Both the position numbers and the translations under genes were made by a program. A stretch of 64,000 nucleotides of DNA from a virus. Under the pieces are notes generated by a model that was not told the origin of the DNA, did not search any database, and saw only the letters and a list, made by a program, of their open reading frames with translations. Position 1 is the stretch's first letter, and the number at the start of each line of letters is the position of its first letter. Positions 16,573 through 46,560 of this stretch are shown one piece after another. The DNA is taken from positions 1 to 64,000 of IMG/VR virus record IMGVR_UViG_3300021085_000025, one strand, 5' to 3'.

Positions 16573-17289
16573 TCACTCTTGTGTTACCGTTGTAGAGCAG
16601 CCACCAATCGTCATACAGTCTACACTTAGAGTATATGTTTGATTAGTACCACTCATTTGTTTCAAGATTAGATCTGTTCCGTATAAACCGTCAAGTGTTA
16701 TGTTTGCATTGTGAGTTGCGCCAGTGCCTTTTTGACGAATGAACACGTCATTATAATCATTGTAAATAGTAAGGCCTACATTCTTTGCACCATTACTTTG
16801 TTGTTTTATTTGAACTTTATTATAATCTCCGGCTAGATGTAAATCAAAATCATGGCCATCGGATGCACCCGTTTGGTTTGTTTGTTGAACTGCTAATTCA
16901 TTGTTGTCGCCGTATAAAGTAATATCTATTTCATGGCCTCCACTTTCATAGTTATCTACCCACCAAGTTAAATCAGTATCAGAATCAAGTGTAGTCCATG
17001 CAGCGCCTTGAGCAAGTTTCATTTGATTACCTATTCCACTTACTTCATCAAAGGTAATTTTATTAGGGAGTCCACCTGTTGATGTGTTAACCTGGACCAA
17101 ATACATATCTAAACTTGATGCCGTAATATATGAATTCGAGTCTAACATTTCAATATTATTATTATAACCAATTTGATCAACACCCAATTGAAAGTTATCG
17201 CCAGATTGCTCTAATGATATTACGTTATCGTCAGCAAAACAAATTGCTGGTAATAATAACATACTTAAAACAAATATTAATTCTTTCAT
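16573..17289 (-). CDS. Secreted curlin-like repeat protein 2
   Basis: A 238-residue protein with a clear signal peptide (MKELIFVLSMLLLPAICFAD). The mature part has curlin-like repeats of the form N-x-hydrophobic-x-hydrophobic-x-Q-x-G...N (ISLEQSGDNFQLGVDQIGYN; GDNNELAVQQTNQ; GDYNKVQIKQQSNG; DYNDVFIRQKG; LILKQMSG). Two Cys lie near the C-terminus. In bacteria such repeats form the beta-stacked amyloid fibre exported through CsgG. Here csgG and csgF homologues lie upstream in the same operon, which supports export by that channel. Confidence 0.75.
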   Translation of the reverse strand: MKELIFVLSMLLLPAICFADDNVISLEQSGDNFQLGVDQIGYNNNIEMLDSNSYITASSLDMYLVQVNTSTGGLPNKITFDEVSGIGNQMKLAQGAAWTTLDSDTDLTWWVDNYESGGHEIDITLYGDNNELAVQQTNQTGASDGHDFDLHLAGDYNKVQIKQQSNGAKNVGLTIYNDYNDVFIRQKGTGATHNANITLDGLYGTDLILKQMSGTNQTYTLSVDCMTIGGCSTTVTQE

Positions 17290-18399
17290 TTAATTCACCT
17301 GATTTATATAAATGAAGATATCCTCACCCTCATTTCCTGTAATTATTCCATCCCATGTTGGCGTGTATGCTTCTATTGTAAAATTATTACCAGCACCAAT
17401 CTTCAAGTTTATAGCTCCATTTAAATTTCTATATAATACTAATGAGCCATCCTGTAGAAACACATTAAACTGTGATTCATCGTTAAATCCTCTTCTTGCG
17501 CCCTTAATCGTAAATTCACCTAATGTGTCAAATAGATCAGAGCTATCTATAATATCTAATACATCTACTAAGTAATCAACGTTTAATTCATCAATATCTA
17601 ATTCGTTAAAATCATCAAGTTCATCCTTTTCTAACTCATCCTTTTCTAACTCATCAAACTCAAGAAAATCTATATCTAATATTCCCTGGTCTTCATTTGC
17701 ATCATCGGCCATTTCTTCCTTTATCCTCTCCGTTACTGCTGGTGGAGGTGATACAATAAACATGTTATCGATTAATGCAGGTGTAATGCCATTCACTACT
17801 ATCGACTGTGTTGGTGATGAATCTAATGATGATACCATGGTTGCGGCATAGGCTTCGTTTAATGTAACTACCCCACCTTCATTAGAAACTATTATTTCTC
17901 CAGATGGATTACCAGTATCATCTGGTAGTAGTATGATTAGGCTTCTGCCTAATTCATCTACAGTTGTTGTAAAATCTGTTCCCCGTACGGCAATCGAGGC
18001 AGTAGGAGTCTTGATATCAATATTGGCTTTATTCACTAATCCCAATCTTCCAGATGCGAATCTTGCCGTTCCCATTGTAAACTTCATACTCATCTTTGAG
18101 AGTGAAGGGTCAGGATCATAATATATTTCGTCTATTAGTACTTCAGAATGTTCTTTTAAAGACAGTTGAGCTTTATCTAAAAACTCAATGAGCATTCTTC
18201 CGTTACCAGTTTTTGCTTCATCATTTAGTTCTATAGGTATTTGATTAGATACTTTAATTTCTTTACTATTACGCACAATCTGGCTAATGCCAGTCGACTC
18301 TACTATATCACCAATGGAATTAGCTTCAACTCCACTGGCGAATAGTATAAAACTAACTATCGTTAGCTGCGTCTTTCTGATTAATTTGTACAGTAGCAT
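17290..18399 (-). CDS. Secreted FecR-domain protein
   Basis: 369 residues from the ATG at 18399, which gives a good signal peptide (YKLIRKTQLTIVSFILFASG, cleavage after VEA). Residues about 30-200 match a FecR domain (GDIVESTGISQIVRNSKEIK; LSLKEHSEVLIDE; TPTASIAVRGTDFTTTVDE). Then comes a very acidic linker with two copies of ELEKD and a C-terminal beta-rich domain (NVFLQDGSLVLYRNLNGAIN). FecR domains usually sit in periplasmic sensors or surface proteins. Between two curlin-like genes it may anchor or nucleate the fibre. An earlier in-frame start at 18507 would read through the upstream gene. Confidence 0.75.
   Translation of the reverse strand: MLLYKLIRKTQLTIVSFILFASGVEANSIGDIVESTGISQIVRNSKEIKVSNQIPIELNDEAKTGNGRMLIEFLDKAQLSLKEHSEVLIDEIYYDPDPSLSKMSMKFTMGTARFASGRLGLVNKANIDIKTPTASIAVRGTDFTTTVDELGRSLIILLPDDTGNPSGEIIVSNEGGVVTLNEAYAATMVSSLDSSPTQSIVVNGITPALIDNMFIVSPPPAVTERIKEEMADDANEDQGILDIDFLEFDELEKDELEKDELDDFNELDIDELNVDYLVDVLDIIDSSDLFDTLGEFTIKGARRGFNDESQFNVFLQDGSLVLYRNLNGAINLKIGAGNNFTIEAYTPTWDGIITGNEGEDIFIYINQVN
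17621..17650 (-). repeat. 15-bp tandem repeat in the FecR gene
   Basis: Two exact copies of TCATCCTTTTCTAAC (plus strand), coding the repeated acidic unit ELEKD. A likely site of slippage that changes linker length in 5-residue steps without breaking the frame. Confidence 0.8.
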
Positions 18400-19090
18400 T
18401 ATCTGACGTAATATCCAAATTAATGATCGCGTTAGGAGTTGCACAAGGTGAACCTCCCACACAAGTACCTGAAATCTGATTAATATCAATGTCACCACTA
18501 TCTCCATTCCACTCTACAGTCAATGATTGAGAACCATCGTTTTGTAATGTGTTGAAGTTATTGCTGTCACCAGTAATATCAAAATTCCAAGTTATATCAT
18601 CAGATTCAAAATCTAAATCAAATACGTTTGAACTACCTAATAGAATTAAATCAGCATCTAGTCTTTCTGCACTTGATCCAACTTTACCTTGATCTATATC
18701 AAATGTATTACTGTCTCCAGTAATAGCAAAGGCGTAATTAGAAGAATCTGAACTTCCAGTATCTCCAATATTCCAATCAACTTCGTTTGAATCTCCAGTT
18801 GTTGAGAAAGTCAAAGAAGAAGAATCTAAAACCAAAGGACCAAATATTAAGTTCTGATTACCAATTTGATCAATATTAAACGTCAAGCTTGAGCCAACAA
18901 TTGTCATATCTGCCGGACTTGATGAAAAATCATTTAAACCAATCTTGTTACCATAACCTACCTGATCAATAAATAATGTTAATGTGTCACCCGTCTGGTC
19001 TATCCTAATTTCATTATCATCAGTAGCCTGCCCGAAAACAAACGGTGTTAATAACAATCCAACGATAGTTATACTTAAAAGTTTATTCAT
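18353..19090 (-). CDS. Secreted curlin-like repeat protein 1
   Basis: 245 residues from the ATG at 19090. Signal peptide MNKLLSITIVGLLLTPFVFG. The mature protein is rich in Asp, Ser, Asn and Gly with repeated units such as DNEIRIDQTGD, LFIDQVGYGNKIG, FNIDQIGNQN, GDSNTFDIDQGKVG, GDSNNFNTLQNDG and DNATVQINQKD, very like the curlin repeat. It is probably a fibre subunit. Its start overlaps the csgG stop and its end overlaps the FecR gene, so expression is coupled. Confidence 0.8.
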   Translation of the reverse strand: MNKLLSITIVGLLLTPFVFGQATDDNEIRIDQTGDTLTLFIDQVGYGNKIGLNDFSSSPADMTIVGSSLTFNIDQIGNQNLIFGPLVLDSSSLTFSTTGDSNEVDWNIGDTGSSDSSNYAFAITGDSNTFDIDQGKVGSSAERLDADLILLGSSNVFDLDFESDDITWNFDITGDSNNFNTLQNDGSQSLTVEWNGDSGDIDINQISGTCVGGSPCATPNAIINLDITSDNATVQINQKDAANDS

Positions 19091-20039
19091 TTTCGTTTTC
19101 CTCCTTATTTGCATGTCTTACGTTTTTCCCATCGTGTTGATGTGGATGACGATGACCTGCTGTTATATCCCAGAATTTACGGTCGTGACCCTGGTAGATT
19201 AATTCCAGTACGGCCGCTTCAATAGCTGCACGTACTGCATACGTCACACTCTCATTATTACCCACCCCGTCCTCATATTCTATAAGTTGTGTTCCTTGCT
19301 CAATGAATTTGAACAAGTCGCCACCACTTCCGTAAGATAATACCGATTTCTTACTCTGGACGTTTAACAATACTTCACCTGTTAATACTGACACTGCTCT
19401 CACAGATACAGTAACAACATCTTTACGATACATTTTACTAAAACCTATACCAAGAGTCCGTGCACCACGACCACCTGTTTCGGTGTTAGTGTCATAACCA
19501 ATAATTCCTCCCTCTATAATCATTCCAGCGAATAAGAGAGGTCCAACTCCTTTTGATTCACCACCTGCGGCTTTAGCCACATCTTGCCGTGTGGATCTTA
19601 CAATCTGCCTTTCCCTTACAAGATTGTCAATACCTTGTCTTTCTACTACTCTGAACCATGTACCACCACCGGCTGTTTTGAGTGCGTCTATCAATAATTC
19701 AGTACCACCCTGAGTAACTGCGGTAGAGAACGATGCTATGTTATCTACTGATTTTCGTTGGCCTGTTAGATCTTTAAATCCATATACTGCAACAACTGGT
19801 TTATCCTTTGCTGGAGGTAGATTTAATAGGTCTACATACGCTGGTAATCTAACTGCAGTTGGTTCATCAATACAGATATATTTTCTAGCCATTGCTTTTT
19901 GTATACCCATCTGCACATGTCTATTAAAACCTTCGTCATACTTTCCTTCCAAGTCATTGCAATCTTGGTAGTTATCACTCCACTGCGGAACCGACGCGCA
20001 TCCGCTAAGCAATAGCAATATGGCTAGATACTTAACCAC
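19083..20039 (-). CDS. csgG: Curli secretion channel lipoprotein CsgG
   Basis: A 318-residue protein with a lipoprotein signal (LAILLLLSGC, lipid on Cys14) and the CsgG core: KPVVAVYGFKDLTGQRKS, GTWFRVVERQGIDNLVRERQ, GGIIGYDTNTETGGRGARTL, then a transmembrane beta region (VTVSVRAVSVLTGEVLLNVQ). CsgG forms a nonameric outer-membrane pore through which curlin subunits leave. The C-terminus has an unusual His-rich tail (HRHPHQHDG). It follows csgF and precedes the putative substrates, so the operon looks functional. Confidence 0.93.
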   Translation of the reverse strand: MVKYLAILLLLSGCASVPQWSDNYQDCNDLEGKYDEGFNRHVQMGIQKAMARKYICIDEPTAVRLPAYVDLLNLPPAKDKPVVAVYGFKDLTGQRKSVDNIASFSTAVTQGGTELLIDALKTAGGGTWFRVVERQGIDNLVRERQIVRSTRQDVAKAAGGESKGVGPLLFAGMIIEGGIIGYDTNTETGGRGARTLGIGFSKMYRKDVVTVSVRAVSVLTGEVLLNVQSKKSVLSYGSGGDLFKFIEQGTQLIEYEDGVGNNESVTYAVRAAIEAAVLELIYQGHDRKFWDITAGHRHPHQHDGKNVRHANKEENENE

Positions 20040-20517
20040 CGTCTGAGTCCTGACTAAAGTTGCCGCTGCCTACTGGTATTTCAATAACTGTGGTAGTTCC
20101 ATCTGAATCTACAATAGTCATTTTAATAAATTCTGAACCATCATCATTAGTAATAACCTCGTATGTTACAACGTTACCTTCTAACGTAAACGATCCGTAT
20201 CGTACAGAACCATCATTACTAAACATAGATTCTACTAGCTGTTTAGACATCTGTGCATATATTCTACTTTCCAAGTTTCTTATAAACTTAGCCATAGTAG
20301 TATTTGCTTCTTCTCTTTCAGCAGCCTTTCTTGCGGCTACCAATGCATCATGTATTGCCTTTTTACGAGAATGTTCTTGGTTCTCAATCGTTAAATAATG
20401 TGCTCCAGTTCCAGATCCACTGAATGATGGATTTTTGAACCCAAATTTAATCTCGTCAGCTTGTACAGCCAAGGGAAATATACACATCGCTAATACGACT
20501 TTAAATTTCATCTTCAT
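20032..20517 (-). CDS. csgF: Curli assembly factor CsgF
   Basis: A 161-residue protein with a signal peptide (ending AVQADE) and the CsgF start motif IKFGFKNPSFSGSGTGAHYL (compare the NPNFGG segment of E. coli CsgF, which plugs the CsgG pore). A helical middle follows and then a beta C-terminal part (TYEVITNDDGSEFIKMTIVD...VIEIPVGSGNF). CsgF binds the outer mouth of CsgG and guides fibre nucleation. No CsgE was found in the window. Confidence 0.88.
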   Translation of the reverse strand: MKMKFKVVLAMCIFPLAVQADEIKFGFKNPSFSGSGTGAHYLTIENQEHSRKKAIHDALVAARKAAEREEANTTMAKFIRNLESRIYAQMSKQLVESMFSNDGSVRYGSFTLEGNVVTYEVITNDDGSEFIKMTIVDSDGTTTVIEIPVGSGNFSQDSDGG

Positions 20518-34656: not shown

Positions 34657-35412
34657 TCACTTCTCCGTTTTAGCTAAGGTTTTAATTGCTTTGACATAGT
34701 TAGGCATTCCGTGATCTACAACTCCATCAAAGAATTTCCATCTTTTCCATGAGTTAATAATACCATAGAACGCATCGGCCCAAGTAGGCTTAAGTTGCTT
34801 ATCACCAAATCTATTAAAGTAAATCATTTGACCATGATGTCTAAATCCTAACCATGCTGGAGGGATTCTACATACGATATCATTATTATTCATAAACCTA
34901 TAATGATCTGATTTTATATTTTTGATGAAGTGTTTACCTCCGACTCTTGGTGAGCCAAAAGTAAATAACTCTTCTGGTTGATAACGAGTTGCTGCAATGG
35001 TTGCCATAGCAGCGCCTAATGAATGACCAGTGAAATATATATCCTTTCTCACTTTTAGTTGATCGTTGTGATCAAGCTCTTTTACAATGTCCATCCATAC
35101 GTCATCGACCTCTTCTTGGAATCCTCCATGAACTTTACCTCCGGCCTTGGCTGTATTTTTAATTACTTTTAAATCTGCTAATACGTCATTTAATTTTGCA
35201 GGTTCAGTTCCTCTAAAAGCAAACCACATATCGTTTCTATCTTTGGCAATAAGTACCTCAGCACCGTCTCTACTAATAATCTTACCTGAAGCAAATCCTA
35301 ATTTTTTACAAGCTGCATCGGCGGGCTTAGGATTCATATATGCTATAGCTGATAACTTTGCCGCTACTTCAGCTCTTTCCCATAATGTCATATCATCTTT
35401 CATTCTACTCAT
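34657..35412 (-). CDS. Class 3 lipase-like alpha/beta hydrolase
   Basis: 251 residues from the ATG at 35412 (GGAGAAAG upstream; an earlier in-frame ATG at 35460 overlaps more of the spanin gene). Core motifs: WFAFRGTEPAK (oxyanion region), HGGFQEEVD, nucleophile elbow IYFTGHSLGAAMATIAA, FGSPRVGGK, then Asp in NNNDIVCRIPP and His in VVDHGMPNYV, a full Ser-Asp-His triad. No signal peptide, so it acts in the cytosol or leaves through a membrane lesion. In a lysis group it may damage membrane lipids. Confidence 0.85.
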   Translation of the reverse strand: MSRMKDDMTLWERAEVAAKLSAIAYMNPKPADAACKKLGFASGKIISRDGAEVLIAKDRNDMWFAFRGTEPAKLNDVLADLKVIKNTAKAGGKVHGGFQEEVDDVWMDIVKELDHNDQLKVRKDIYFTGHSLGAAMATIAATRYQPEELFTFGSPRVGGKHFIKNIKSDHYRFMNNNDIVCRIPPAWLGFRHHGQMIYFNRFGDKQLKPTWADAFYGIINSWKRWKFFDGVVDHGMPNYVKAIKTLAKTEK

Positions 35413-35902
35413 TTTCTTCTTTCTCCACTTTGATTTCAACTGCTGCAGCTTGCTCATCATTTATTGTTACGTTCCTATAGTAGACTATCACCTCACCGAG
35501 CTGATTAATATATCTTTTGATTTCCTGCGTATTATATGACATTAACTCATAATCTGCAACTGTCATAGCATAGAATACAATGTCTCCGCCATGTTTCTTT
35601 TTGATATCATCGATAAACTTATCAAGATACGTATGTCCTTCTGGATATAAATCTTCTTTACCTAACTTACAATCACGTTCCTTGGTCTCTGGATTCTTTA
35701 AACAATTCTCAATTATCTTAGCATCAGATACTACATACCACTTAGGTTCTTTTAAATCAATTGCTCTTGGTAATACAGGCTGAACAATTTCTATTTTTAT
35801 CGGCTTAGTTATAATCTCAACTTCTCTTGGCGCCTGTTGCCATAGACTACAACCACTAATCGTTAAGAGAGCTAATACGCTGACTATCTGCTTCAATCGC
35901 AT
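35405..35902 (-). CDS. Outer-membrane spanin (Rz1-like lipoprotein)
   Basis: A 165-residue lipoprotein: signal ALLTISGC with the lipid-modified Cys at about residue 18, a Pro-rich segment (PVLPRAIDLKEPKWYV) and a periplasmic domain. The start overlaps the membrane-anchored coiled-coil gene upstream by 47 bases, the typical Rz/Rz1 overlap. Spanins fuse inner and outer membranes in the last step of lysis. It is longer than Rz1 of lambda, as in other marine phages. Confidence 0.75.
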   Translation of the reverse strand: MRLKQIVSVLALLTISGCSLWQQAPREVEIITKPIKIEIVQPVLPRAIDLKEPKWYVVSDAKIIENCLKNPETKERDCKLGKEDLYPEGHTYLDKFIDDIKKKHGGDIVFYAMTVADYELMSYNTQEIKRYINQLGEVIVYYRNVTINDEQAAAVEIKVEKEENE

Positions 35903-36252: not shown

Positions 36253-36453
36253 TTATTTCTCTATTTTTTTAGACTCGGCCTTTTTCCTTCTTGCAAGTAT
36301 TCTTTCAACAAATTTACGGCCAGCTTTTGTTCTACCGTCGTAAATATCTTTCTTTTTCTTTTTCTTATCGTGCACTGCGTCTGACGGCATTGATACACCA
36401 CCACCGCCTACTGAATTAGCAGCTTCTTCCCACATATCTTTAAATTTTTTCAT
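36253..36453 (-). CDS. Small basic putative internal protein (66 aa)
   Basis: MKKFKDMWEEAANSVGGGGV: an MKxF start and WEE|A resemble the capsid-targeting peptides of T4 internal proteins. The rest is very basic (DKKKKKKD, ARRKKAESKK), suiting DNA contact in the head. It ends a long late gene chain. Confidence 0.6.
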   Translation of the reverse strand: MKKFKDMWEEAANSVGGGGVSMPSDAVHDKKKKKKDIYDGRTKAGRKFVERILARRKKAESKKIEK

Positions 36454-37043
36454 CTTTTTATATCCGCACTCGTTATGAGTATTTTTTGTTTTGTTAGAAC
36501 ATGTTCCACTTGAAATACATTCAATCCAAATATAGAACCACTAGGTTTCGTAAAATCGCCCACGCGTACTACACCATTTCTATGTGCAATAAAATCACCA
36601 GTAATAGGTGAAGCAATATCTTGAGTAAGAGTATATGATCCTGGAGACAGTTTTCCATCCCTTTCAAACCATGCTGTATTCTCTGATAGATCGATTGTTT
36701 CTTCTAAATCATCAAATACCTTACATAAAACATCTTTTATTTCTTCATCTGTTAATTTAGCATTTTCTTTGATTAAGAATAGTGCTGCGGCATAAGTAGC
36801 CAATCTCGTACTTCCACCAGGAACTTTTTGCATTATCCTCTTTACATTAAAAACTAATCTATGAAAAACAGTATATGATGATTTTTCCTGTGGTGTTTTA
36901 CGATCTGCAGCTTTCTTAATTGCCTTTCCAGACTTATCTATTATACCCAACTCAAAAGCTTCAGTTTTTTCCCAAGGTGTGACTAAGAGCTTTAGGAATC
37001 TAAAGGCGTAGAATAAGTCTGCTGTTCTTGATACTATACTCAT
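36450..37043 (-). CDS. Conserved T4-like hypothetical (197 aa)
   Basis: Pattern MSIVSRTADLFYAFRFLKLL, FHRLVFNVKRIMQKVPGGST, LATYAAALFLIKE, shared by marine T4-like phages. The C-terminal part looks beta-rich. No targeting peptide. Probably a virion or assembly protein, from context only. Confidence 0.7.
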   Translation of the reverse strand: MSIVSRTADLFYAFRFLKLLVTPWEKTEAFELGIIDKSGKAIKKAADRKTPQEKSSYTVFHRLVFNVKRIMQKVPGGSTRLATYAAALFLIKENAKLTDEEIKDVLCKVFDDLEETIDLSENTAWFERDGKLSPGSYTLTQDIASPITGDFIAHRNGVVRVGDFTKPSGSIFGLNVFQVEHVLTKQKILITSADIKR

Positions 37044-37414
37044 TAAATGTTCCTAAGTCTTTCTATTACGTTTGTGTCTAAAGGTATTTCAACCATATAA
37101 TCTTCTGGTAAATAGTTTAAGAATACCAAAAAGGTTTTTAGCTGAGAGTAATGCTCTGGTTCTATTTTAAACCACATCATCCTATTAGCAGCTTTTATAC
37201 CAAATACGTTATACAAAACTATAATGTGATTTAATATTAGCCTTTCTTGTAAATCACCAGATTGTTCATAACGTCTAAGTAATCTTTTAAGATACTTAAA
37301 TCTTGTCAAATCTTCTTTAAACTCTTCGATCTCAATACATTCCGGATTGTTATAATGTTGAGATGCGAAGAGTTCAAAGTTTCTACTAGTCAGCTTTTCA
37401 AAAATTTTCATCAT
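37043..37414 (-). CDS. Conserved T4-like hypothetical (123 aa)
   Basis: MKIFEKLTSRNFELFASQHY then a helical body (RFKYLKRLLRRYEQSGDLQE, RLILNHIIVLYNVFGIKAAN). A compact helical protein known from several T4-like groups, no function known. Overlaps the next ATG by one base. Confidence 0.7.
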   Translation of the reverse strand: MMKIFEKLTSRNFELFASQHYNNPECIEIEEFKEDLTRFKYLKRLLRRYEQSGDLQERLILNHIIVLYNVFGIKAANRMMWFKIEPEHYSQLKTFLVFLNYLPEDYMVEIPLDTNVIERLRNI

Positions 37415-37429
37415 ATATTATATATAATA

Positions 37430-38131
37430 TTAGTCTGATTCGTTATCAGCCTCATAGTTCTTATCAACATAATCAAAAAACTCTTTTTTCTTCTCGCCTT
37501 CAAGCTCGCCAGGTGAAGTTACGCCGAACTTCTTAAGAGCAGCTTTAAAGAATTTTTGATATCTTTCTTTATCTTCCTGCATCTTAGTTTTCTTTTTGTT
37601 CATGCCATAAGCTTCTTCTACTACTTGCTCTGTAACTTCTTCATTGGCAAGTTGTAATGCGGCTGCGACTTCTTTATCTTTAGATAAGCCTTTCTTTAAT
37701 TTTTCAATTTTCTTTACGGCTCCTGTCATATTACCACCCATCTTAAGAGCAATATCTACGGCTTTCTTAAGAAGTTTCTTATCAACAGCTTCGTCAATAG
37801 CTTCTTCTTCAACTTTTTCTTCTAAGTCTTCATTTTCTTTAACTACAGAACCATCTTCTTTAGCACCAGATTTTTTAACAGTGTGCTTAGCTTTAAAGTC
37901 CTTTTCACCCTTTGCTTTTGGCTCAGCAACTTCGTCTACTTCAGGCTTTTCGTGTGTATAACCCTTATCGGCAAGAGCTTTATGCTCTGCTTCGTCCTTG
38001 GCTACTTCTTTTTCGCCAGTTTCAGGATGAAACATATCATGTGGATATTTTCCTTCCTCTTTTACTTTGCCTTCAAGCACATCGCTAACGGTGTCAGCAA
38101 TGCTTAAAGTCGTGTTATCTTTAAGTTTCAT
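37430..38131 (-). CDS. Highly charged putative internal/scaffold protein (233 aa)
   Basis: Very rich in Lys and Glu with low complexity (KAKGEKDFKAKH; EEKVEEEAIDEAVDKKLLKK). N-terminal DVLE|G (about residues 16-20) could be a prohead protease site. C-terminal AALKKFGVTSPGELEGEKKK is a conserved short domain in marine phage internal proteins. Suggests a head-core or internal protein. Confidence 0.6.
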   Translation of the reverse strand: MKLKDNTTLSIADTVSDVLEGKVKEEGKYPHDMFHPETGEKEVAKDEAEHKALADKGYTHEKPEVDEVAEPKAKGEKDFKAKHTVKKSGAKEDGSVVKENEDLEEKVEEEAIDEAVDKKLLKKAVDIALKMGGNMTGAVKKIEKLKKGLSKDKEVAAALQLANEEVTEQVVEEAYGMNKKKTKMQEDKERYQKFFKAALKKFGVTSPGELEGEKKKEFFDYVDKNYEADNESD

Positions 38132-38141
38132 ATTAGTTCTC

Positions 38142-38441
38142 CTATTTTATGAAAAACATTCCTGTAATTGCTGTAGCCGAGGCTGCGATTACTATCCAGA
38201 ATAATTTATTTATTATGTTTACGGTTTGGGCATTTTCACGCACAAGTATTTCTAACCTATCAACTCTATTTATAAGAGTTAATATCTGTTCTCCTTGTTG
38301 TTTACCGAATTCAGTTATGGTTGAGATTCTCTCCTCGGCTCTGGCCAGCGAGATTATTACATCCGACATCTTATCGATTTTTTCTTCGATTCGATCAAGT
38401 CTTGCGGCTTGCTCTAATCTTTGCTCAGCTGCACTAGCCAT
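38142..38441 (-). CDS. C-tail-anchored coiled-coil membrane protein (99 aa)
   Basis: A long coiled coil (about residues 5-75, LDRIEEKIDKMSDVIISLAR) and one C-terminal membrane helix (FWIVIAASATAITGMFF). A mirror image of the holin-like proteins at 20.5-21 kb. A holin, antiholin or membrane-tether role is possible. Confidence 0.6.
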   Translation of the reverse strand: MASAAEQRLEQAARLDRIEEKIDKMSDVIISLARAEERISTITEFGKQQGEQILTLINRVDRLEILVRENAQTVNIINKLFWIVIAASATAITGMFFIK

Positions 38442-38730
38442 AGTTACATATCCTTAATTTCAGAGGGGTTGCACCCTTGATTAATCTATGGTATTCAGAT
38501 TTTTGTATTCTAAACACCATACCTTTTTTTAGAAGCCAAGGGAGACAGTCCTGAATTTGAAATTGCCATCCCTCTCCTTCTAAAATTTCTATTTCTCTAT
38601 CATCATGATCACGATGCCATACATATTCAGCATCTTCCCTCGAAAGGTCAAATTCCCTTATTACTCCATCTTCCCAATACGGTTTACCAAAAGTAAGATC
38701 CACCACCTTTAAGCCCCAAGTCTTTGGCAT
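38434..38730 (-). CDS. Cupin-like protein (98 aa)
   Basis: Conserved region DREIEILEGEGWQFQIQDCL and YHRLIKGATPLKLRI, a double-stranded beta-helix (cupin-like) pattern seen in marine phages, perhaps binding a small ligand or metal (HRD, YHR). Start uncertain: ATG at 38730 or GTG at 38706; both overlap the upstream gene. Confidence 0.6.
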   Translation of the reverse strand: MPKTWGLKVVDLTFGKPYWEDGVIREFDLSREDAEYVWHRDHDDREIEILEGEGWQFQIQDCLPWLLKKGMVFRIQKSEYHRLIKGATPLKLRICNYG

Positions 38731-39055
38731 ATTTAGGTAATCTGCACGCCCAATAGCCAGCTTTAGTTTTATCGGTTTTAGTATCACAGTTATGACGAGC
38801 AGCAAAATTTCTTGCAGCGTCTCGGTCATTAATCTTAGATGTTAAACCGCCCTTTTCGTCACCAAATTCAATCTTTTTCACATTACCCGTTTTAGGATTT
38901 TTCACATAAACAACATACTTCTTTTTCCCACTAGATCGTTTTGGTTTGTTTAACTCCTGCTCTTCATCAATTTCTATCATTGGTTGATCCAAAGGTACAT
39001 GTTGACCTTCATATAAACCAAATCTCTCTTCAATATGTTCTAAAAACGTATGCAT
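38684..39055 (-). CDS. Putative packaged protein, conserved C-terminal domain (123 aa)
   Basis: The start MHTFLEHIEERFGLYEGQHV fits a capsid-targeting peptide with LYE|G. The body YVKNPKTGNVKKIEFGDEKG, then NDRDAARNFAARHNCDT and KAGYWACRLPKYAK is a conserved, Cys-containing domain widespread in cyanophage-type phages. Function unknown; capsid delivery is inferred. Confidence 0.65.
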   Translation of the reverse strand: MHTFLEHIEERFGLYEGQHVPLDQPMIEIDEEQELNKPKRSSGKKKYVVYVKNPKTGNVKKIEFGDEKGGLTSKINDRDAARNFAARHNCDTKTDKTKAGYWACRLPKYAKDLGLKGGGSYFW

Positions 39056-39507
39056 TATTTTCCCTTGATAGTCCTTACAACTTTACTTACTATCATTTTA
39101 CTCGCTACTTGATATGCAAATCCATATCCCCATATTGCATGAAATGTATGATTCTTTTCTATTGCTTCTTTGCCACCAAAGTTTTTAGTCCAGTTATCTA
39201 CATATTCACCTTTATATCTTAGCACGGCGTGTGATACTTTCCATTTACTAGGACCAACCAAACATATACCGGCCTGGTGTGTTAATAGCATCCACCACAT
39301 CTTAAGATGACTTTCTCCACATAATCTCCAAAGAATAGTAAGCGCATAGTCTTCGCAATCACCTACTAGTTTACCGTTTTCATCTTCGGAATAAATAATT
39401 TTCCATGCATCATTCATGCCATATTGCTCTTTATCGTATCGGTATTTCCATTTACTATTAAACGATGATACAATTTTATCTCTTGCGTATTCTTCTGCGG
39501 TCTTCAT
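39055..39507 (-). CDS. Transglutaminase-like cysteine peptidase
   Basis: 150 residues from the ATG at 39507. GDCEDYALTILWRL supplies the Cys, SHAVLRYKGEYVDNW gives His and Asp, in the order and spacing of bacterial transglutaminase-like cysteine peptidases. The start MKTAEEYARD is only weakly like the targeting peptides. It may cut host or head proteins. Confidence 0.7.
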   Translation of the reverse strand: MKTAEEYARDKIVSSFNSKWKYRYDKEQYGMNDAWKIIYSEDENGKLVGDCEDYALTILWRLCGESHLKMWWMLLTHQAGICLVGPSKWKVSHAVLRYKGEYVDNWTKNFGGKEAIEKNHTFHAIWGYGFAYQVASKMIVSKVVRTIKGK

Positions 39508-40172
39508 TTCTTTTGCCCCTTTATCCATTTTAATGCTATTGCATTTTCTGGTGATTTTGCAGCCCAGGTTTTTATGTCTTTATACGCTTCTAACGTTGAG
39601 GCTTCTATATCGGATCCTTTAGAGTTATCTATAATAATCATTCTATTTCTAAACAACCCTTGGAATTTACCAATGTTTTGTTGTACACCTTTCCACATTT
39701 TAGTCACCATATCATCAGGCAGTGATCGAGGCCTCATTTTATTTCTTTCTAATGCTGTGTCTAAGTCTGTGTTTACAAAAATCATATGCACTGCATATCC
39801 AATTGTCCTTAACATATCAACCTGTTTTTTAATCTTAGTGTAGTCTTTACCAGTACCATCAATAACAAGACCTAATCTACCGTTTAAAGCCAATTTCATC
39901 TGCTTACCGGTTAAAGATTTTGCACTAGCTCTTACTGCCTGCCCTTGAGCCGAAGCTATATCTTTTGGATCAGTTGTTAGGCCGGCCTTTTTTAATCCTT
40001 TTTCAAATGCATCATCTGAGTTTATCAATCTAAATCCCAATGCTTGCAAGGCAGTTTTACCCACAATGAATGATTTACCGCTTCCAGGTCCGCCTGCTAA
40101 GAATACAGCTTTAAATATAGAAGGATCATTTACACCTTCCATTATGTCAAAATGTTCTTTAAAATTATCCAC
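39504..40172 (-). CDS. P-loop kinase (zeta-toxin/PNK-like), putatively packaged
   Basis: A 222-residue protein. N-terminal MDNFKEHFDIME|GVND looks like a capsid-targeting peptide with an IME|G site. Walker A GGPGSGKS at residues 27-34, a DGTGKDY motif (about 105-111) and RNKMRPRSLPDDMV (lid-like Arg). Fits kinases that phosphorylate nucleic-acid ends, nucleotides or UDP-sugars. Packaged and injected with DNA if the peptide works. Confidence 0.75.
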   Translation of the reverse strand: MDNFKEHFDIMEGVNDPSIFKAVFLAGGPGSGKSFIVGKTALQALGFRLINSDDAFEKGLKKAGLTTDPKDIASAQGQAVRASAKSLTGKQMKLALNGRLGLVIDGTGKDYTKIKKQVDMLRTIGYAVHMIFVNTDLDTALERNKMRPRSLPDDMVTKMWKGVQQNIGKFQGLFRNRMIIIDNSKGSDIEASTLEAYKDIKTWAAKSPENAIALKWIKGQKK

Positions 40173-40626
40173 CGAATTCGTGCCCTGCTACTCTTTTCAT
40201 TTGCTTTTTAAATTCAGCAAAGTCTGGTTTACTTTTGTAAAGCTTAATTGATATCTCACTTCTATCTTTACCTTTAATTCTCCAGTTATAACCTTGTTCT
40301 TTATGTTCCGGTTTTGTCGTCTTTACTACTCTACGCTTAAAACCATTTTCCCATGATTCTGAACCTTCCGATAACTGTTCATCAATCATTATAGCAAGGA
40401 CGTGAGGATCAAGACCAAACTGATTCGCAATCCTGCCTGCGTAATATTCTTTACCATGCCTTGGTTTAGGACCATGTTTATACATGATCTCTTTTACTTT
40501 ATCAATTGCACGTTGATACTTCTTTTTAAAAATTGTATCTGCAGCAAGTTTTTTAATCAATTGATGAGTAGTTAATTCACCTAACGCTACTGGCAATTTA
40601 TCAAACATTTCTTGAAATGTTTTCAC
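40165..40626 (-). CDS. Putative packaged internal protein (153 aa)
   Basis: Starts MKTFQEMFDKLPVALGELTT, very like T4 IPIII MKTYQEFIAEA, with an LGE|L site. The body is Lys-rich with a helix (ADTIFKKKYQRAIDKVKEIM). No enzyme motif seen. Confidence 0.7.
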   Translation of the reverse strand: MKTFQEMFDKLPVALGELTTHQLIKKLAADTIFKKKYQRAIDKVKEIMYKHGPKPRHGKEYYAGRIANQFGLDPHVLAIMIDEQLSEGSESWENGFKRRVVKTTKPEHKEQGYNWRIKGKDRSEISIKLYKSKPDFAEFKKQMKRVAGHEFGG

Positions 40627-40877
40627 TTTATTCTTTTTCCTTTTTTTAATACTGCCATAGCATCTTTCTTATCCATTCCCATACTATATGGATCTACTAG
40701 CCATGCTAAAAGATCTTTGACATTTCCTGACACTTTAATAGTAGCATTTTTTCTGTCCCATCGATCTAGATAAACACCGACATCTTGGAAATCACCTTGG
40801 TATTCCCTAGGATCACCCATGTCCCAATTAACTTCTATCTGCTTATTTGCTTCTCGTATTTCTTGAAATGTTTTCAC
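40623..40877 (-). CDS. Putative packaged internal protein (84 aa)
   Basis: Starts MKTFQEIREANKQIE, the closest match to T4 internal proteins: MKTFQE and IRE|A. After cleavage a small domain of about 75 residues remains (GDFQDVGVYLDRWDRKNATI). Function unknown. Confidence 0.75.
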   Translation of the reverse strand: MKTFQEIREANKQIEVNWDMGDPREYQGDFQDVGVYLDRWDRKNATIKVSGNVKDLLAWLVDPYSMGMDKKDAMAVLKKGKRIK

Positions 40878-40878
40878 T

Positions 40879-41376
40879 TTATTTTAGCACCTTCGCTAAT
40901 TCTTGAACTGTCATAACTTTAATATTGCCTTCCTGATCGACAGTACCAAACTTTAAAGTTTTACCGTCAAGTCTTGGCTTAATGGTATATGCAGATAGTC
41001 CACCCTTTTTACCTGGGATATTATGGACTGTTCCATCTTTATCCATTTTAGGCTTTCCTCTATGACTTGGATTGTCGTTGCCAAGTGCTTCATCAACAGA
41101 CTCTTTCTTAACCACCTTTGAACTATTTTTGTCAATGAAATCAGCTGATTTATTTTGAGCACTACGATCGCCTCCTCTAGCATATGCATCTAGATATGCT
41201 TGAGCATGAGCTTCGGCATGTTTAGGTGATTTCCAGCCAACTGATCCAAGGTACATCACTTTACCAGTTTTTTTGTTTTTAACTTCGGCTCGATGGCCGC
41301 CGAATTTAGACTTTTCTGACCCTACAACATATTCTGCTGGATCAAATCTCTCTCTTAATTGCGTAAATTGTTTCAT
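40879..41376 (-). CDS. Putative packaged internal protein (165 aa)
   Basis: Starts MKQFTQLRERFDPAEYVVGS with LRE|R or PAE|Y as possible sites. Lys/Gly/Ser-rich, very basic middle; a second VDE|A site lies near residue 98. Probably a DNA-associated head protein. Confidence 0.65.
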   Translation of the reverse strand: MKQFTQLRERFDPAEYVVGSEKSKFGGHRAEVKNKKTGKVMYLGSVGWKSPKHAEAHAQAYLDAYARGGDRSAQNKSADFIDKNSSKVVKKESVDEALGNDNPSHRGKPKMDKDGTVHNIPGKKGGLSAYTIKPRLDGKTLKFGTVDQEGNIKVMTVQELAKVLK

Positions 41377-42563
41377 TAACTTCCCCTTACTTTAGCAGCT
41401 AGGTCTTTATCAGCCCCGCCCCATGTTCCTTTTGATTTTGTTGCAAATGAATTAACCCGTGCTAATCCCCATTGTGTTGGATTTGTTCCTGGTCTATGAC
41501 TTGATTTCCAAGCTGCGTATCCTCTATCAAATACCTTTTTTAATATGCCATAAGGCATACCAGATTTATCAGCTTTCTTTTGAAGTGCTTTCTTTGCATC
41601 AGCTTCTTCTAAAGATTGTGAGAAGCTTTTCATTTCTCCAAACTTCCTTTTAAACTCTTTCGTATGATCGCTTTCTGGAGCATTAGGTCTTGGCTTATTA
41701 TGTGCCTCTTTTTCCTTTGCATTCATATCAGAGTATTTCTTTTCTTCCAAATGCTCAACGTCATCTAACCAAACACGTTTCTTCCATTCACCAAATTCGA
41801 CAACCAAGAAGTTCGTACCACATCTCTGAATCATTCCAATTTGATTTGTTTCTTTTAGAACAACCTCATCTCCAGGCTTAAACAACTCACCCTCGATAAA
41901 TTTTTCTCTTTGCTCGGATACTGGTTCTAGCTCTACATGTTTGCGGTGCATGTGAGTTTCTTTTAGTCCCATACCTTTTCTAATTGTATTAAATAATGCT
42001 TTTGAATCTTTATAACCTTGTGGCATTCCTTTAGTAAAGTTTTCTAAATCATTATCTGAGGCATAAGCTCTGAGTTTAGACGCTGACATACCAGCTACAC
42101 CTTCAGCGTCTGGATCTCTTTCTCCAGCTGAAACCACTTTTATACCTTTTTCAAAATTATAGAAACCGTGTCTAGAATCAACACCATTATATTTGTTGAG
42201 CAGAGTGTCAAACTCTTTTAGCCTATCTGAACCAGCAATCATTGTTACTGATGTAAAGCCTTGGCCATATAACTTAACACAAATATCTAATGCAGTTCTA
42301 ACGTCGGCATCGGCCATTACGCTTCGCGCGTGCTTTGGAAACATTTTACGTAGAAACTTTACTTTATCTTTAAACGACAAAGGGTTTTTCTTAGGATCTT
42401 GAGACTTTGAACCGTATATTCTATATGGATTAGATCCGGCCGTTTTCTTTAGCTTATCAAAAAGTTTTTCATGACCCGACGTTGGTGGATTAAATCGACC
42501 AAAAACGAAGTATACTTCGCCTTTAGCTTCAGTCAAATATTGGCTAAAACTCTTAAATTCCAT
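41376..42563 (-). CDS. Packaged nucleotidyltransferase fused to a second cargo domain
   Basis: 395 residues from the ATG at 42563, one base after the upstream stop. N-terminal MEFKSFSQYLTE|AKGE is a targeting peptide. Then a HIGH-superfamily nucleotidyltransferase: FGRFNPPTSGHEKLF near the start and GMSASKLRAYA (ISSTxxR-like) about 135 residues later, as in NMN/nicotinate or pantetheine adenylyltransferases and cytidylyltransferases. In the middle (coding position 41633) a second MKSFSQSLEE|ADAKK peptide starts a C-terminal domain (MPYGILKKVFDRGYAAWKSS, RPGTNPTQWGLARVNSFATK) that occurs alone in other phages. It looks like a fusion of two cargo proteins, each with its own peptide. Substrate unknown. 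Confidence 0.75.
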   Translation of the reverse strand: MEFKSFSQYLTEAKGEVYFVFGRFNPPTSGHEKLFDKLKKTAGSNPYRIYGSKSQDPKKNPLSFKDKVKFLRKMFPKHARSVMADADVRTALDICVKLYGQGFTSVTMIAGSDRLKEFDTLLNKYNGVDSRHGFYNFEKGIKVVSAGERDPDAEGVAGMSASKLRAYASDNDLENFTKGMPQGYKDSKALFNTIRKGMGLKETHMHRKHVELEPVSEQREKFIEGELFKPGDEVVLKETNQIGMIQRCGTNFLVVEFGEWKKRVWLDDVEHLEEKKYSDMNAKEKEAHNKPRPNAPESDHTKEFKRKFGEMKSFSQSLEEADAKKALQKKADKSGMPYGILKKVFDRGYAAWKSSHRPGTNPTQWGLARVNSFATKSKGTWGGADKDLAAKVRGS

Positions 42564-42564
42564 T

Positions 42565-42951
42565 TTACGCATCACCACCTTTGCTTTTTAACTTGGCTCT
42601 ATCTTTCGCCTTTACTTGAGGAAGCAATTTCTTAGCGATTTTCTTAATAGCAGCTTTTTTCTTATCTAACTTCTTTTCAATACTTTGACGTCCAGCAAAT
42701 GACAAGTCGCTTTTGCTTTTGTTTTTTAGTATTTTTTTAATTAGAATTTCGCGAGCTTGTTTCTCTGCACGCTGCTTTAGTTTTTCTGGGGATGCTAACT
42801 TTTTGGATGCTTTCTTTTTTCCAAGTGCTATTTTAGCTTTGTTTTTTCTGAATGCGGCTTTCATCTTCATACGATGTTGAAGAGACATTGCCTCTGAAAA
42901 ATCTGCATTTTCTTCAGATATATCTGCGCTGTGATCTTTGAACGATTTCAT
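42565..42951 (-). CDS. Very basic packaged internal protein (128 aa)
   Basis: Starts MKSFKDHSADISEENADFSE|A with ISE and FSE|A sites. The rest is Lys-rich and helical (MKMKAAFRKNKAKIALGKKK; RAEKQAREILIKKILKNKSK). Matches a conserved basic protein in marine T4-like phages and the composition of T4 IP proteins that sit with DNA in the head. Confidence 0.75.
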   Translation of the reverse strand: MKSFKDHSADISEENADFSEAMSLQHRMKMKAAFRKNKAKIALGKKKASKKLASPEKLKQRAEKQAREILIKKILKNKSKSDLSFAGRQSIEKKLDKKKAAIKKIAKKLLPQVKAKDRAKLKSKGGDA

Positions 42952-42968
42952 CTTATCCTCGGTTCCAT

Positions 42969-44210
42969 TTAGTTAGGATTATCCCAACCTTTAATTATAT
43001 CTTTGCTAAAGTTATTAGTAGAAAATTCTAATCTATCAACAAGCTTAACAGCTCCACCTTCCATACGATCTATAGCAACAAAACCCTCTGGGTTGGTCAC
43101 TTTAAATCCGGACTTAGTCTTAACAAACGTATTAATTTTACTTAGTTTGTTAAGTTTATTTATAATAATTAATTTGCTATCTGTCACCAAATTATGCAAA
43201 TCAAACACTTTTTGTAAACTTTTTATATTTGATTTGTCAAAAAATGCAAGTAATTCGTCACGTTTTGCTATTTGTACATCTTTTCCCTTTTGGCTGCTTC
43301 TCTTATCGATTTCTTTTTGGTATCTAGCTTGAACAAACATAACAAGCCCAGTTGCATGTTTCTTAGTATCAGTAATACGTTGACCATCTCTTACTTTAGT
43401 GTTGTTATATACATTAATCATAAGATTCAGTTCTTTGTTACCTTCGATTGTTTTAAGAGTTGATGATGATATTGTTCTAAATATTTTGCCAGCTTCTGAT
43501 AATTTTTTATTTAAATCATCAGTTTCTTTCTTAGTTAAAGTCGCAGTCCCGGATAAATCATCTAGGGTTGCATCTTGCATCCATACGTCTTTAGAAGGTC
43601 TAAGTTTGCTAACAATTTCTTTCCCAAACTCAGCTCTCATTGTTTCGAACGTTGCTCCAGAATAAGTTGTATGCCACACAATTCCGATTTTAGCCGATTG
43701 AATCGTCTTACCAAGTGTGCTGCCAGTAGGTACTGCATAAGCGATAGTGTTAGGATGAAACACAACATGACTAACTCCATTTATATTCTCCTTCTTAAGG
43801 TCAGACTTATCAAACATAAAGTCGCCTTGTACAACGCCTTTAATTCCTAAAGGCTTTAGATAATCATAGGCCATCTTTAATTTCTTAGATAAATCACCGG
43901 ATGTATCTGCATCGATATCAGCATGAGACTTATAAATTTTTGGATTGGCATTAAAGATACCCTTTTTTGCAACAAAGAATTGCCCATCCGATGGATCTTC
44001 ACCTGCAAATACGGCGGGGGCGCCGTCCCACTTTACGGTTATGTCTACTGCAGCTTTTGCATTACCGGATAACATATCTCGCAACGACCTGAGTGCAAGT
44101 ATAGCCTGGCGCGCCCCCTTAACTCCGCCGTCAAGAATGAGATCCTCGATATGAATCATATGAGTGTTCTTTCCTGCGGCTTCTGATAATTGATTTTTAA
44201 ATGATTTCAT
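42969..44210 (-). CDS. Ligase-like nucleotidyltransferase, putatively packaged
   Basis: A 413-residue protein. N-terminal MKSFKNQLSE|AAGK is a near-ideal targeting/cleavage peptide. Covalent nucleotidyltransferase motifs follow: K60-W-D-G (motif I, KxDG), FVAKKGIF, GDFMF (129-133, motif III-like), PEGFVAI (374-380, motif IV) and KLVDR (389-393, motif V-like). This is the order of DNA/RNA ligases and capping enzymes, with a long insertion before motif IV. Probable ATP-dependent nucleic-acid ligase; activity not proven. Confidence 0.7.
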   Translation of the reverse strand: MKSFKNQLSEAAGKNTHMIHIEDLILDGGVKGARQAILALRSLRDMLSGNAKAAVDITVKWDGAPAVFAGEDPSDGQFFVAKKGIFNANPKIYKSHADIDADTSGDLSKKLKMAYDYLKPLGIKGVVQGDFMFDKSDLKKENINGVSHVVFHPNTIAYAVPTGSTLGKTIQSAKIGIVWHTTYSGATFETMRAEFGKEIVSKLRPSKDVWMQDATLDDLSGTATLTKKETDDLNKKLSEAGKIFRTISSSTLKTIEGNKELNLMINVYNNTKVRDGQRITDTKKHATGLVMFVQARYQKEIDKRSSQKGKDVQIAKRDELLAFFDKSNIKSLQKVFDLHNLVTDSKLIIINKLNKLSKINTFVKTKSGFKVTNPEGFVAIDRMEGGAVKLVDRLEFSTNNFSKDIIKGWDNPN

Positions 44211-45574
44211 TATTGATATACCTTTACATATGCGCTAGAATCTTCGGATTTAGATCCAGCGTAATTTACTATTTTTGTTATCCATCGATTTGCTTTTGGA
44301 CCCATGTTTTTATCTACGTTATATAGTGTATATAAGCATGCTAATTTAGAATGTATCCAGATAGCATCTTTAGCAAACAATTCTTTTTCGAATTCTTCAT
44401 AAGAATCATTTTTATAAAAATGACTATACATATCGTAAAATATTTTAATAGATCTTTTATCTTTTTTAGTAATATTTTTAGCTATTTTATTGACTAATTT
44501 ATTGTCTGGTATTTTTCTTCTAAAGACTTGTTTCAAAGCTTCTTGCATAACACCGTATCCAGCTCCACCGCCTCTAGCAGTTTTAAGTCTAATTTCACCT
44601 TTAATAGCTCCGCCGGCAGAACCTGCTCTTAAATCAAGTTTGCCATCATCGAATATTACAGTGGCTCCTTTATTAGACCAGAAAGTACCACGCTTTTCGC
44701 CTTGAAATATGATAGATTGAATTTTGTGATCGTCAGTGTCAGGGGGTAGTTTGATATTGTATTCTTTCAACTTGGCTGTTTTTTTGACGAGCTTAAGTGA
44801 TATTGCTACAAGGTTTCGATCAACAAAGGCTTGTAACAATGCTTTATTATATGCGGCAATATTTTCAGTATTTAGAGTTGATAATTTGTAACTTTTTTCA
44901 ACGGCCCAGATATCTCCAGGATTCCATTTATCATCTTTGACAGGTTTTTGATCTGAATTTTTATATGCAACATTTTTATATGCATATATTGTATTCATCA
45001 ATTTGCTATTTCTATGGAACGTTTGTGACTTATTGATATAGCCATTTTTAATAAGAAGAAGTGCAGATTCGTATGATGAGTGAAACCAACCATCTTCAAC
45101 TGATAATACTTCATCCAAAGTTGCATCAACGTAAACTCTTTTATATGCGGATTTAATTATCTCTTCGCTCATAAAGAATTCTTTATCTTGAATGCCGTTA
45201 TCTAGCATAGCTTGACAAATAACGCATTGGTGCGATTCGGTTATTTTGGTATTAAGAGTACCGCCACCTGAACCGCCGCCGCCACCAAAGACAGAACCTT
45301 TTCCAAGCTCTGACGAACTAATAGTTTTACCGTCTCCATGCAGCGGAAATGGCTTATTTAGTTTTTTGAAAATTTCAATTTGAGAAAGAGCATCATCAAT
45401 TTCAGTGACAATAAATGTACCACCCTTAGCTAGTTCAAGGGGCTTTTTGTCTCTTATAAGTCTAGTAAGAATATCTAAACGATCTTCACCAGTAACTGAA
45501 TTCGGTTTATTTAGCTCTGAAGGAGTTAATTTTACTGCCTCTTTGACAGTATCGAAAGATAAAAAATTTTTCAT
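44210..45574 (-). CDS. Large putative packaged protein (454 aa)
   Basis: Starts MKNFLSFDTVKE|AVKL. Contains a Gly-rich stretch (VFGGGGGSGGG), then ESHQCVICQAML, NPGDIWAVEK and a second Gly-rich segment (KTARGGGAGYGVMQEALKQV). The layout resembles large conserved head-region proteins of marine phages; no enzyme class is certain. It is the first gene of the packaged-protein operon and has an early and a late promoter directly upstream. Confidence 0.65.
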   Translation of the reverse strand: MKNFLSFDTVKEAVKLTPSELNKPNSVTGEDRLDILTRLIRDKKPLELAKGGTFIVTEIDDALSQIEIFKKLNKPFPLHGDGKTISSSELGKGSVFGGGGGSGGGTLNTKITESHQCVICQAMLDNGIQDKEFFMSEEIIKSAYKRVYVDATLDEVLSVEDGWFHSSYESALLLIKNGYINKSQTFHRNSKLMNTIYAYKNVAYKNSDQKPVKDDKWNPGDIWAVEKSYKLSTLNTENIAAYNKALLQAFVDRNLVAISLKLVKKTAKLKEYNIKLPPDTDDHKIQSIIFQGEKRGTFWSNKGATVIFDDGKLDLRAGSAGGAIKGEIRLKTARGGGAGYGVMQEALKQVFRRKIPDNKLVNKIAKNITKKDKRSIKIFYDMYSHFYKNDSYEEFEKELFAKDAIWIHSKLACLYTLYNVDKNMGPKANRWITKIVNYAGSKSEDSSAYVKVYQ

Positions 45575-45580
45575 AATAGC

Positions 45581-45609
45581 ATTATACCATTCCTAGTGAA
45601 GTTTGTACA
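45581..45609 (-). promoter_or_regulatory. Early-type promoter before the packaged-protein operon
   Basis: TGTACA (45609-45604), 17 bases, TATAAT (45586-45581). Expected +1 at about 45574, the A of the ATG: leaderless start possible. Confidence 0.7.
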
Positions 45610-45613
45610 ATAC

Positions 45614-45621
45614 TATTTATA
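45614..45621 (-). promoter_or_regulatory. Late promoter before the packaged-protein operon
   Basis: TATAAATA on the minus strand, +1 near 45608, inside the -35 of the early-type promoter. Gives a 33-base leader and late expression, as needed for head proteins. Confidence 0.65.
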
Positions 45622-45807
45622 CTATTTTTTACTTCGGTGTTTAGGATTGTACGACTTATTTGGCCAGACATCGTCATTTTCATCAACAGTAATAATGCCG
45701 ATTAGTTCTAACATATCTATCATTTTTTCTCCGCCTTGCTTTATTCCTATATTATAGGAAGAAAAGCCGACGCCAAGTACACAACAAACAAATATAATAT
45801 ATTCCAT
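45622..45807 (-). CDS. Small membrane protein (61 aa)
   Basis: N-terminal hydrophobic helix (YIIFVCCVLGVGFSSYNIGI), then a short soluble part (MIDMLELIGIITVDENDDVW). Typical small marine T4-like protein. TAATG overlap with the gene before. Confidence 0.65.
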   Translation of the reverse strand: MEYIIFVCCVLGVGFSSYNIGIKQGGEKMIDMLELIGIITVDENDDVWPNKSYNPKHRSKK

Positions 45808-46531: not shown

Positions 46532-46560
46532 ATTATACAATAGTTTTACACATTTGTACA
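46532..46560 (-). promoter_or_regulatory. Early promoter
   Basis: TGTACA (46560-46555), 17 bases, TATAAT (46537-46532), A-rich upstream. Confidence 0.75.

Follow-up and report, generated by a model that had tools for sequence, protein, structure and literature searches.

The window analysed here, 64 kb of the 65.2-kb virus record IMGVR_UViG_3300021085_000025 from IMG/VR, comes by gene content from a T4-like phage, with tail, DNA replication, RNR, PhoH and ThyX genes. On its minus strand, at 36253-45574, lies a cluster of 16 genes in which about ten unrelated proteins begin with a short leader of the kind carried by the internal proteins of phage T4. Very probably these proteins are cargoes: the leader would target them to the capsid, a gp21-type prohead protease would cut it off, and the mature proteins would most likely be ejected with the DNA.

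A leader shared by unrelated genes

The leaders are short N-terminal sequences that combine an aromatic residue at about position 4 with a [hydrophobic]-x-Glu/Ala or Gly junction (Table 1; a slash marks the predicted cut, and P3, P1 and P1' are positions relative to it). An earlier reading of the letters alone, here called the sequence-only reading, had quoted eight such N-termini, likened them to the T4 start MKTYQEFIAE/A and judged the likeness too consistent for chance. All eight are present in this cluster, and that T4 start is seen in both ipII and ipIII. A rule of the form M.{1,4}[FY] at the start, then [ILVMFW].E[AGS] placing the cut after one of residues 8-22, is matched by 8 of the 111 called genes of the window, every one of them in the cluster; the resulting contrast of 8/16 genes inside against 0/95 elsewhere (Fisher p=2.9e-8) is partly circular, because the rule was drawn up after the list of quoted N-termini. 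When residues 2-31 were shuffled, matches averaged 0.42 and no round out of 2000 exceeded 4, against 8 in the real proteins, and the matches cluster likewise in two relatives (8/20 vs 1/124, 7/24 vs 1/141), so the likeness does go beyond chance. T4 ipII and ipIII, used as positive controls, are recovered by the rule, which gives false positives in 2 of the 17 further T4 genes checked. The bodies of the cargoes are mutually dissimilar (BLASTP, E<=0.1), so the leader is not a sign of duplication, and paralogy of the cargo bodies was ruled out.

Two further genes, g5 and g13, probably belong to the leader set, to judge from their N-termini. Only two orthologues of g5 were found, and its homologue in the close relative G002 (92% identity over the DUF6267 gene, g2) starts MKKFTELRE/R; in g13 the V-x-E/G junction is kept among 25 homologues with leaders of 19-21 residues. 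The targeting half of the leader is present in g7, which lacks Glu at P1 and has an orthologue only in a near-identical contig. For g16, read earlier as MKKFKDMWEE/A, the leader stands and the cut position does not: conservation places the site at MWE/, followed by Asp or Glu in P1', and homologues mostly begin MKTFKDMWE/DAA. The g8 leader is kept in homologues, and the g6 start MKTFQEIRE/AN is matched in a relative by MKKFNEVRQSILPE/AYKQVEV.

Aligning the N-termini with those of related phages, as the sequence-only reading had advised, revealed leaders that vary in sequence and length around a kept junction. In 80 close relatives from IMG/VR, the cut was anchored where the conserved body begins, and the residue before it had to be E or D. 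On that basis 189/189 distinct leaders had Glu at P1, though leader length varied from 9 to 21; P3 was mostly L, V, I, M or F, and P1' was A in 94, G in 69 and D in 18. The g1 leader occurs in relatives as MKSFLSLEPIKE/AV, MKSFLSTLEPIRE/GV, MIKFSNFESIQE/AV, MKSLRYFEQIEELQE/AV and MNSFLSHQINE/AV, and an alignment of 20 homologues leaves F4 and E12 as its sole invariant residues. These are the kinds of position that T4 IPIII mutants tie to targeting (positions 4 and 7) and processing (8 and 10; PMC9026906). Variants of the g3 leader (MKSFKEHEAELSEDSGDFSE/AMSL, MLTFKEHSGVTE/AMSM and MLSFKDHTQLE/ALTP) range from 11 to 21 residues with the E/A junction kept; T4 capsid-targeting sequences (CTS) span 10-20 residues (PMC9026906, PMC5694885). 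On these alignments the leader appears as the unit under selection, and the set of cargoes that carry it differs between phages and turns over. About two dozen more leader-bearing families occur across the relatives, nearly all without known identity; Pfam searches with 20 of them returned one HAD/polynucleotide-kinase-phosphatase-like protein and left nearly all the rest without assignment. This protein (L117:11037-11642, at 71037-71642 of the relative G001) has the leader MKKFNEFLAE/R and is encoded outside the cargo cluster.

Loss of the leader was seen in the DUF6267 family, to which g2 belongs (Pfam, E 1e-102). All 79 of 79 close relatives have a leader on this protein and none of 80 cyanophage-type homologues does; the latter begin M[SA]KNTHLEHLE, which is to say at the predicted cut. 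HTVC008M-type homologues have a shrunken leader (MYSLNNYLVE/DKNTH, MELLNE/DKNTH). The 30 virion proteins listed for cyanophage S-SZBM1 do not include its DUF6267 protein, 141, which lacks the leader; absence from a mass-spectrometry list is weak evidence alone. The NMNAT-like neighbour of 141, protein 140, with the leader MRFRQFIIE/A, is among those listed.

Prohead protease, virion proteomes and late promoter

The evidence for a protease was taken from relatives, since gp21 is not in the window record. A gp21 homologue outside the window, as the sequence-only reading had expected, exists in relatives but not in the rest of the 65-kb record: prohead protease (PF03420) was found in 5 of 6 long relative contigs, namely G002 and four others, and gp21 also in the isolates C48C1, Melnitz, DLP_6 and HTVC008M. 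The G002 protease matches T4 gp21 (PDB 5jbl, E 4e-23). Candidate cuts of the capsid pre-sequence, read from sequence, have the same character: ISE/A and ISE/V in G001 and G002, and FLAE/A in S-SCSM1.

Two cargoes have homologues in cyanophage virions, according to published proteomes of related phages. The NMNAT/cytidylyltransferase g4 has homologues in virions of S-SM1 (PMC3037559), S-CREM2 (gp154; PMC10665884), S-SCSM1 (gp91; PMC9602691, record MK867354) and S-SZBM1 (140; PMC9146016), and the g1 homologue S-SCSM1 gp90 (E 1e-25) is also virion-detected. Homologues of the leaderless neighbour at 37043-37414, S-SCSM1 gp96 and S-CREM2 gp159, are not among the virion proteins. Across S-CREM2 and S-SCSM1, 7/12 rule-matching proteins were virion-detected compared with 83/466 others (p=0.002); detection in S-SCSM1 follows the 'virion protein' marks in the record, which number 47 as tabulated against 45 in the paper. 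A looser motif (an aromatic residue together with [hyd]xE within residues 8-14 and no restriction on P1') gave p=0.014 for S-CREM2, 0.12 for S-SCSM1 and 0.008 pooled, and was dropped as noisy on cyanophage proteomes. Two further S-CREM2 virion proteins start in the same manner, a SAM-lyase-family protein (PF23780, E 2e-19; MKDFDSFLE/E) and a kinase-like protein (MKRFDAFLTE/E). We also noted that S-CREM2 gp12 (L007:7704-10313), a virion-detected protein described in print as a Cas9 nuclease, matches no Pfam family and shows a leader-like ...LRFASFMAE/A near its start, where the start codon is perhaps mis-set.

The sequence-only reading had assigned a late promoter to the operon. The core TATAAATA is found across the whole window at chance level, 12 times against 10 expected, and the promoter was thus not judgeable from the window alone; conservation settled the question. 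In 20/20 relative loci the first cargo gene is preceded, at a distance of 13-77 nt, by the core (background 0.027 per 100 nt), and late expression of the operon is supported by this conserved promoter motif. Two side observations concern the same region. TTGTACA-N17-TATAAT occurs twice on the minus strand, within 45560-45625 and at 46532-46560, and upstream of g1 the arms GTATTGTAC...GTTATAATAC could form a hairpin with an AGGA ribosome site in its loop.

Predicted cargo enzymes and fused precursors

Three of the cargoes resemble enzymes. In DUF6267, the KWDG sequence (K60-W-D-G63), motif I of covalent nucleotidyltransferases, is invariant in 37 sequences, and the conserved blocks NPEG(F/Y)VA and KLVDR resemble motifs IV and V. 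The top VIA matches of its AlphaFold model (pLDDT 78) are nearly all RNA or DNA ligases, the best being T4 RNA ligase 2 (Rnl2) and the trypanosome RNA-editing ligase REL1 at Z 6.8 (<8), and plain Foldseek gave no match at E<=0.001. Given these fold results, DUF6267 is graded as a probable RNA-ligase-like covalent nucleotidyltransferase. It is encoded in 439 isolate records and 563 IMG/VR stretches.

By its motif and family matches, the 400-aa g4 is NMNAT/cytidylyltransferase-like: it has the GRFNPPTxGH motif, scores 22.0 bits against a cut-off of 21 for PF01467 (CTP_transf_like) and matches phrog_3041 (E 9e-82). It is the sole two-domain cargo in the window, with an internal leader directly before its DUF5824 domain, MKSFSQSLEE/ADAKK. 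Distant relatives have TLTFEEFNITE/K or TLSFEDFAVTE/Q at this site, and this retention without a Met indicates that the internal leader is not merely a relic start codon. C48C1 encodes DUF5824 in a separate gene that itself has a leader-like start (MITFKKYLEE..DLEE/G), and in Melnitz the 123-aa g10 protein is fused to the NMNAT protein, giving three domains in one fusion. These arrangements suggest that fused precursors would release two or more proteins on cutting. The annotated start of the C48C1 cytidyltransferase CDS0089 (L001:16688-18031) leaves out an in-frame upstream leader, KNFSQYLLEE/, so leaders may be widely missed by annotation.

The third enzyme-like cargo, g8, is a P-loop kinase of the AAA_33/zeta/polynucleotide-kinase group, and its PDB sequence match is weakly to adenylate kinase. 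PDB sequence searches with DUF6267, g1 and g4 gave no credible match, nor did a fold search with g1 (best Z 2.6); in g1 an NPGDxWA...ISLK pattern, picked out by eye only, hints at a PD-(D/E)xK nuclease. PADLOC returned nothing credible among the cargoes.

Elsewhere in the window, a class 3 lipase domain protein (34657-35460, minus strand; PF01764, E 2e-22) lies beside the spanin genes and might have a role in lysis. At 14655-20517 on the minus strand, a CHASE2 and adenylate/guanylate-cyclase protein (PF05226, E 4e-37; PF00211, E 9e-20) is encoded beside a curli-type set comprising a FecR-domain protein, CsgG (E 5e-52), CsgF (E 4e-15) and, as judged by eye, two curlin-like proteins. A membrane cyclase adjoining a curli export set is odd for a phage.

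Table 1. Features of the cargo operon; a slash marks the predicted cut.
Feature	Coordinates	Strand	Leader or remark
T4-type late promoter core TATAAATA	45614..45621	-	upstream of first cargo gene
g1, 454 aa, phrog_1462	44210..45574	-	leader MKNFLSFDTVKE/ at 45539-45574
g2, DUF6267, probable covalent nucleotidyltransferase (RNA-ligase-like)	42969..44210	-	leader MKSFKNQLSE/ at 44181-44210
g3, 128 aa, very basic	42565..42951	-	leader MKSFKDHSADISEENADFSE/ at 42892-42951
g4, NMNAT/cytidylyltransferase-like domain and DUF5824	41376..42578	-	leader (M)EFKSFSQYLTE/ at 42528-42563; likely start ATG 42563
internal leader MKSFSQSLEE/ of g4, directly before DUF5824	41604..41633	-	residues 316-325
g5, probable cargo, 165 aa	40879..41376	-	leader MKQFTQLRE/R
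g6, 84 aa	40623..40877	-	leader MKTFQEIRE/A
g7, possible cargo, 153 aa	40165..40626	-	targeting-like MKTFQEMFDK, no cut site
g8, 222 aa, P-loop kinase (AAA_33/zeta/polynucleotide-kinase-like)	39504..40172	-	leader MDNFKEHFDIME/G
g10, 123 aa, phrog_7595	38684..39055	-	leader MHTFLEHIEERFGLYE/G
g13, probable cargo, 233 aa	37430..38131	-	leader MKLKDNTTLSIADTVSDVLE/G (..SDVLE/G)
g16, 66 aa	36253..36453	-	leader MKKFKDMWE/(E)A
leaderless neighbours (internal negative controls)	36450-37043, 37043-37414, 38142-38441	-	without leader

Proposed route, alternatives and known systems

Capsid targeting with gp21-type cleavage, as the sequence-only reading had proposed, agrees with the match to the T4 CTS and the junction kept despite variable leader length, with gp21 and a like capsid site in a relative, with the cyanophage homologues in virion proteomes, with leaderless homologues that start at the cut and go undetected in virions, and with the internal leaders of fused precursors. 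Late in infection, the cargoes would be made from the T4-type late promoter. By analogy with T4, the leader (M-K-x-F plus a hydrophobic stretch) would dock each cargo on the prohead core, and a gp21-type prohead protease would cut after [hydrophobic]-x-Glu to free the mature protein inside the head. We infer this cleavage from the conservation of the junction, the protease and the capsid site. A second leader inside a fused cargo would yield two proteins from one precursor. Retention in the head is known from the work of others for homologues of g1 and g4, and ejection with the DNA at the next infection is the most likely outcome, for which the injected T4 proteins IPI and Alt are the established precedent.

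Several observations weigh against this account. Neither gp21 nor a capsid gene was found in the 65-kb record, the operon adjoins replication and lysis genes rather than head genes, and the cut sites of the cargoes are predictions from sequence. Five of the 12 rule-matching cyanophage proteins were not virion-detected; no homologue of g3, g5-g8, g10, g13 or g16 could be detected in the proteomes covered, and the S-CREM2 authors left packaging or contamination undecided for the virion enzymes. A sigma70-like TTGTACA-N17-TATAAT at 45609-45581 overlaps the late promoter, making additional, earlier expression possible. NMNAT proteins of the HTVC008M type (L004, L122-L201) keep a targeting-like MKTLKELLRK with no Glu at the cut position, and may therefore be packaged uncut or not packaged.

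Other explanations share some of this evidence. It is conceivable, though unlikely, that the proteins are targeted to the prohead and cut, but serve there as core or scaffold parts or as DNA-condensing filler with no action in the next host. T4 IPIII partly aids head assembly (PMC9026906), several cargoes here, including g3 and g16, are small and very basic, and a small G001 gene that lies between portal and gp21, in the gp68 position, has the same leader (MLSFVELRE/K). Contrary to what core proteins would be expected to show, however, the set varies between phages and turns over, several of its members are enzyme-like (NMNAT-like, P-loop kinase, probable ligase), and the S-CREM2 virion contains the leader-bearing SAM-lyase-family protein.

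We consider it far less probable that the leader tags the proteins for some other kind of sorting or regulation, involving for example the replication site, the membrane or translation, with virion detection reflecting contamination. While the nearby replication genes and the contamination allowed for by the S-CREM2 authors would suit such a tag, the constant part of the leader is the [hydrophobic]xE/A or G junction, which fits a known protease and its capsid-protein site; leaderless forms start exactly at that junction, and leader presence correlates with virion detection. Least weight of all goes to chance or common descent, that is, to duplicated genes or to N-termini that are simply often rich in Lys, Phe and Glu. 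The nearly identical DNA at the starts of g6 and g7 and the false positives of a loose rule point that way, against dissimilar bodies, the shuffled counts (0.4 vs 8) and the lack of a match among the 95 other genes.

If the cargoes are injected, they likely act at time zero on the host or its defences, through nucleotide or RNA repair (DUF6267 and the P-loop kinase) and NAD supply (the NMNAT-like protein). Phage T4 uses Pnkp and RNA ligase against anticodon nuclease. By that analogy, packaged RNA sealing, end-phosphorylation and NAD-making would fit repair of host-defence damage at entry. More tentatively, and with slightly less than an even chance in our estimation, widespread marine T4-like phages (Kyanoviridae and kin) may load their heads in modular fashion, taking in any protein that bears a leader of about ten residues, separate fused cargoes at internal leaders and so deliver at time zero a phage-specific counter-defence and repair kit of RNA-ligase-like, polynucleotide-kinase-like and NMNAT proteins, SAM lyase and kinases. 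The leader gives a mechanism for the cyanophage virion enzymes, which have repeatedly been found without explanation and for which the authors could not exclude contamination. Together with the protease junction, it allows head cargo to be predicted from sequence across a widespread family of marine phages, turns hypothetical proteins into candidate injected effectors open to testing, and suggests a portable tag by which proteins might be loaded into non-T4 phage heads.

The kind of signal is already known from the T4 CTS. Among open-access papers, the only ones searched, just a T4 review joins T4-like phages, capsid targeting and cyanophages. As far as those papers show, what is new is that a CTS is recognised in marine T4-like phages, that a single operon places it on a large set of enzyme cargoes which turns over, that fused precursors contain internal leaders, and that the leader is linked to the unexplained cyanophage virion enzymes.

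The closest known system is that of T4 IPI, IPII, IPIII and Alt, whose CTS is cut by gp21. Shared with it are an N-terminal leader of 10-20 residues with an aromatic position 4, a hydrophobic P3, Glu at P1 and Ala or Gly at P1', a T4-type late promoter and a gp21-family protease (here in relatives). The cargoes themselves showed no likeness to T4 internal proteins in family searches, and unlike those proteins they number about ten, are mostly larger, include enzymes and share a single accessory operon, flanked by replication and lysis genes, with leaders of 9-21 residues and internal leaders in fused precursors. The virion enzymes of S-CREM2, S-SCSM1, S-SZBM1 and S-SM1 (NMNAT/cytidylyltransferase, SAM hydrolase, kinase) include the g1 and g4 homologues, and several have the same leader, but they were published without a packaging signal and one paper doubted true packaging. 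Phage P1 DarB also uses an N-terminal segment to send a defence-countering protein into the head (PMC9024508); that segment measures about 30 residues and belongs to one very large protein, rather than being a short cut leader shared by many cargoes. Ejection proteins of the phiKZ-like phage SPN3US are likewise numerous, packaged in the head and in some cases cut by a T4-like protease, yet several of their propeptides exceed 100 residues and only one is of CTS-like length (PMC5694885). Finally, the polyvalent proteins of phages and conjugative elements combine fused activities predicted to be injected (PMC5512222), whereas the cargoes described here are mostly separate proteins with their own leaders, and the fusions among them keep an internal protease site.

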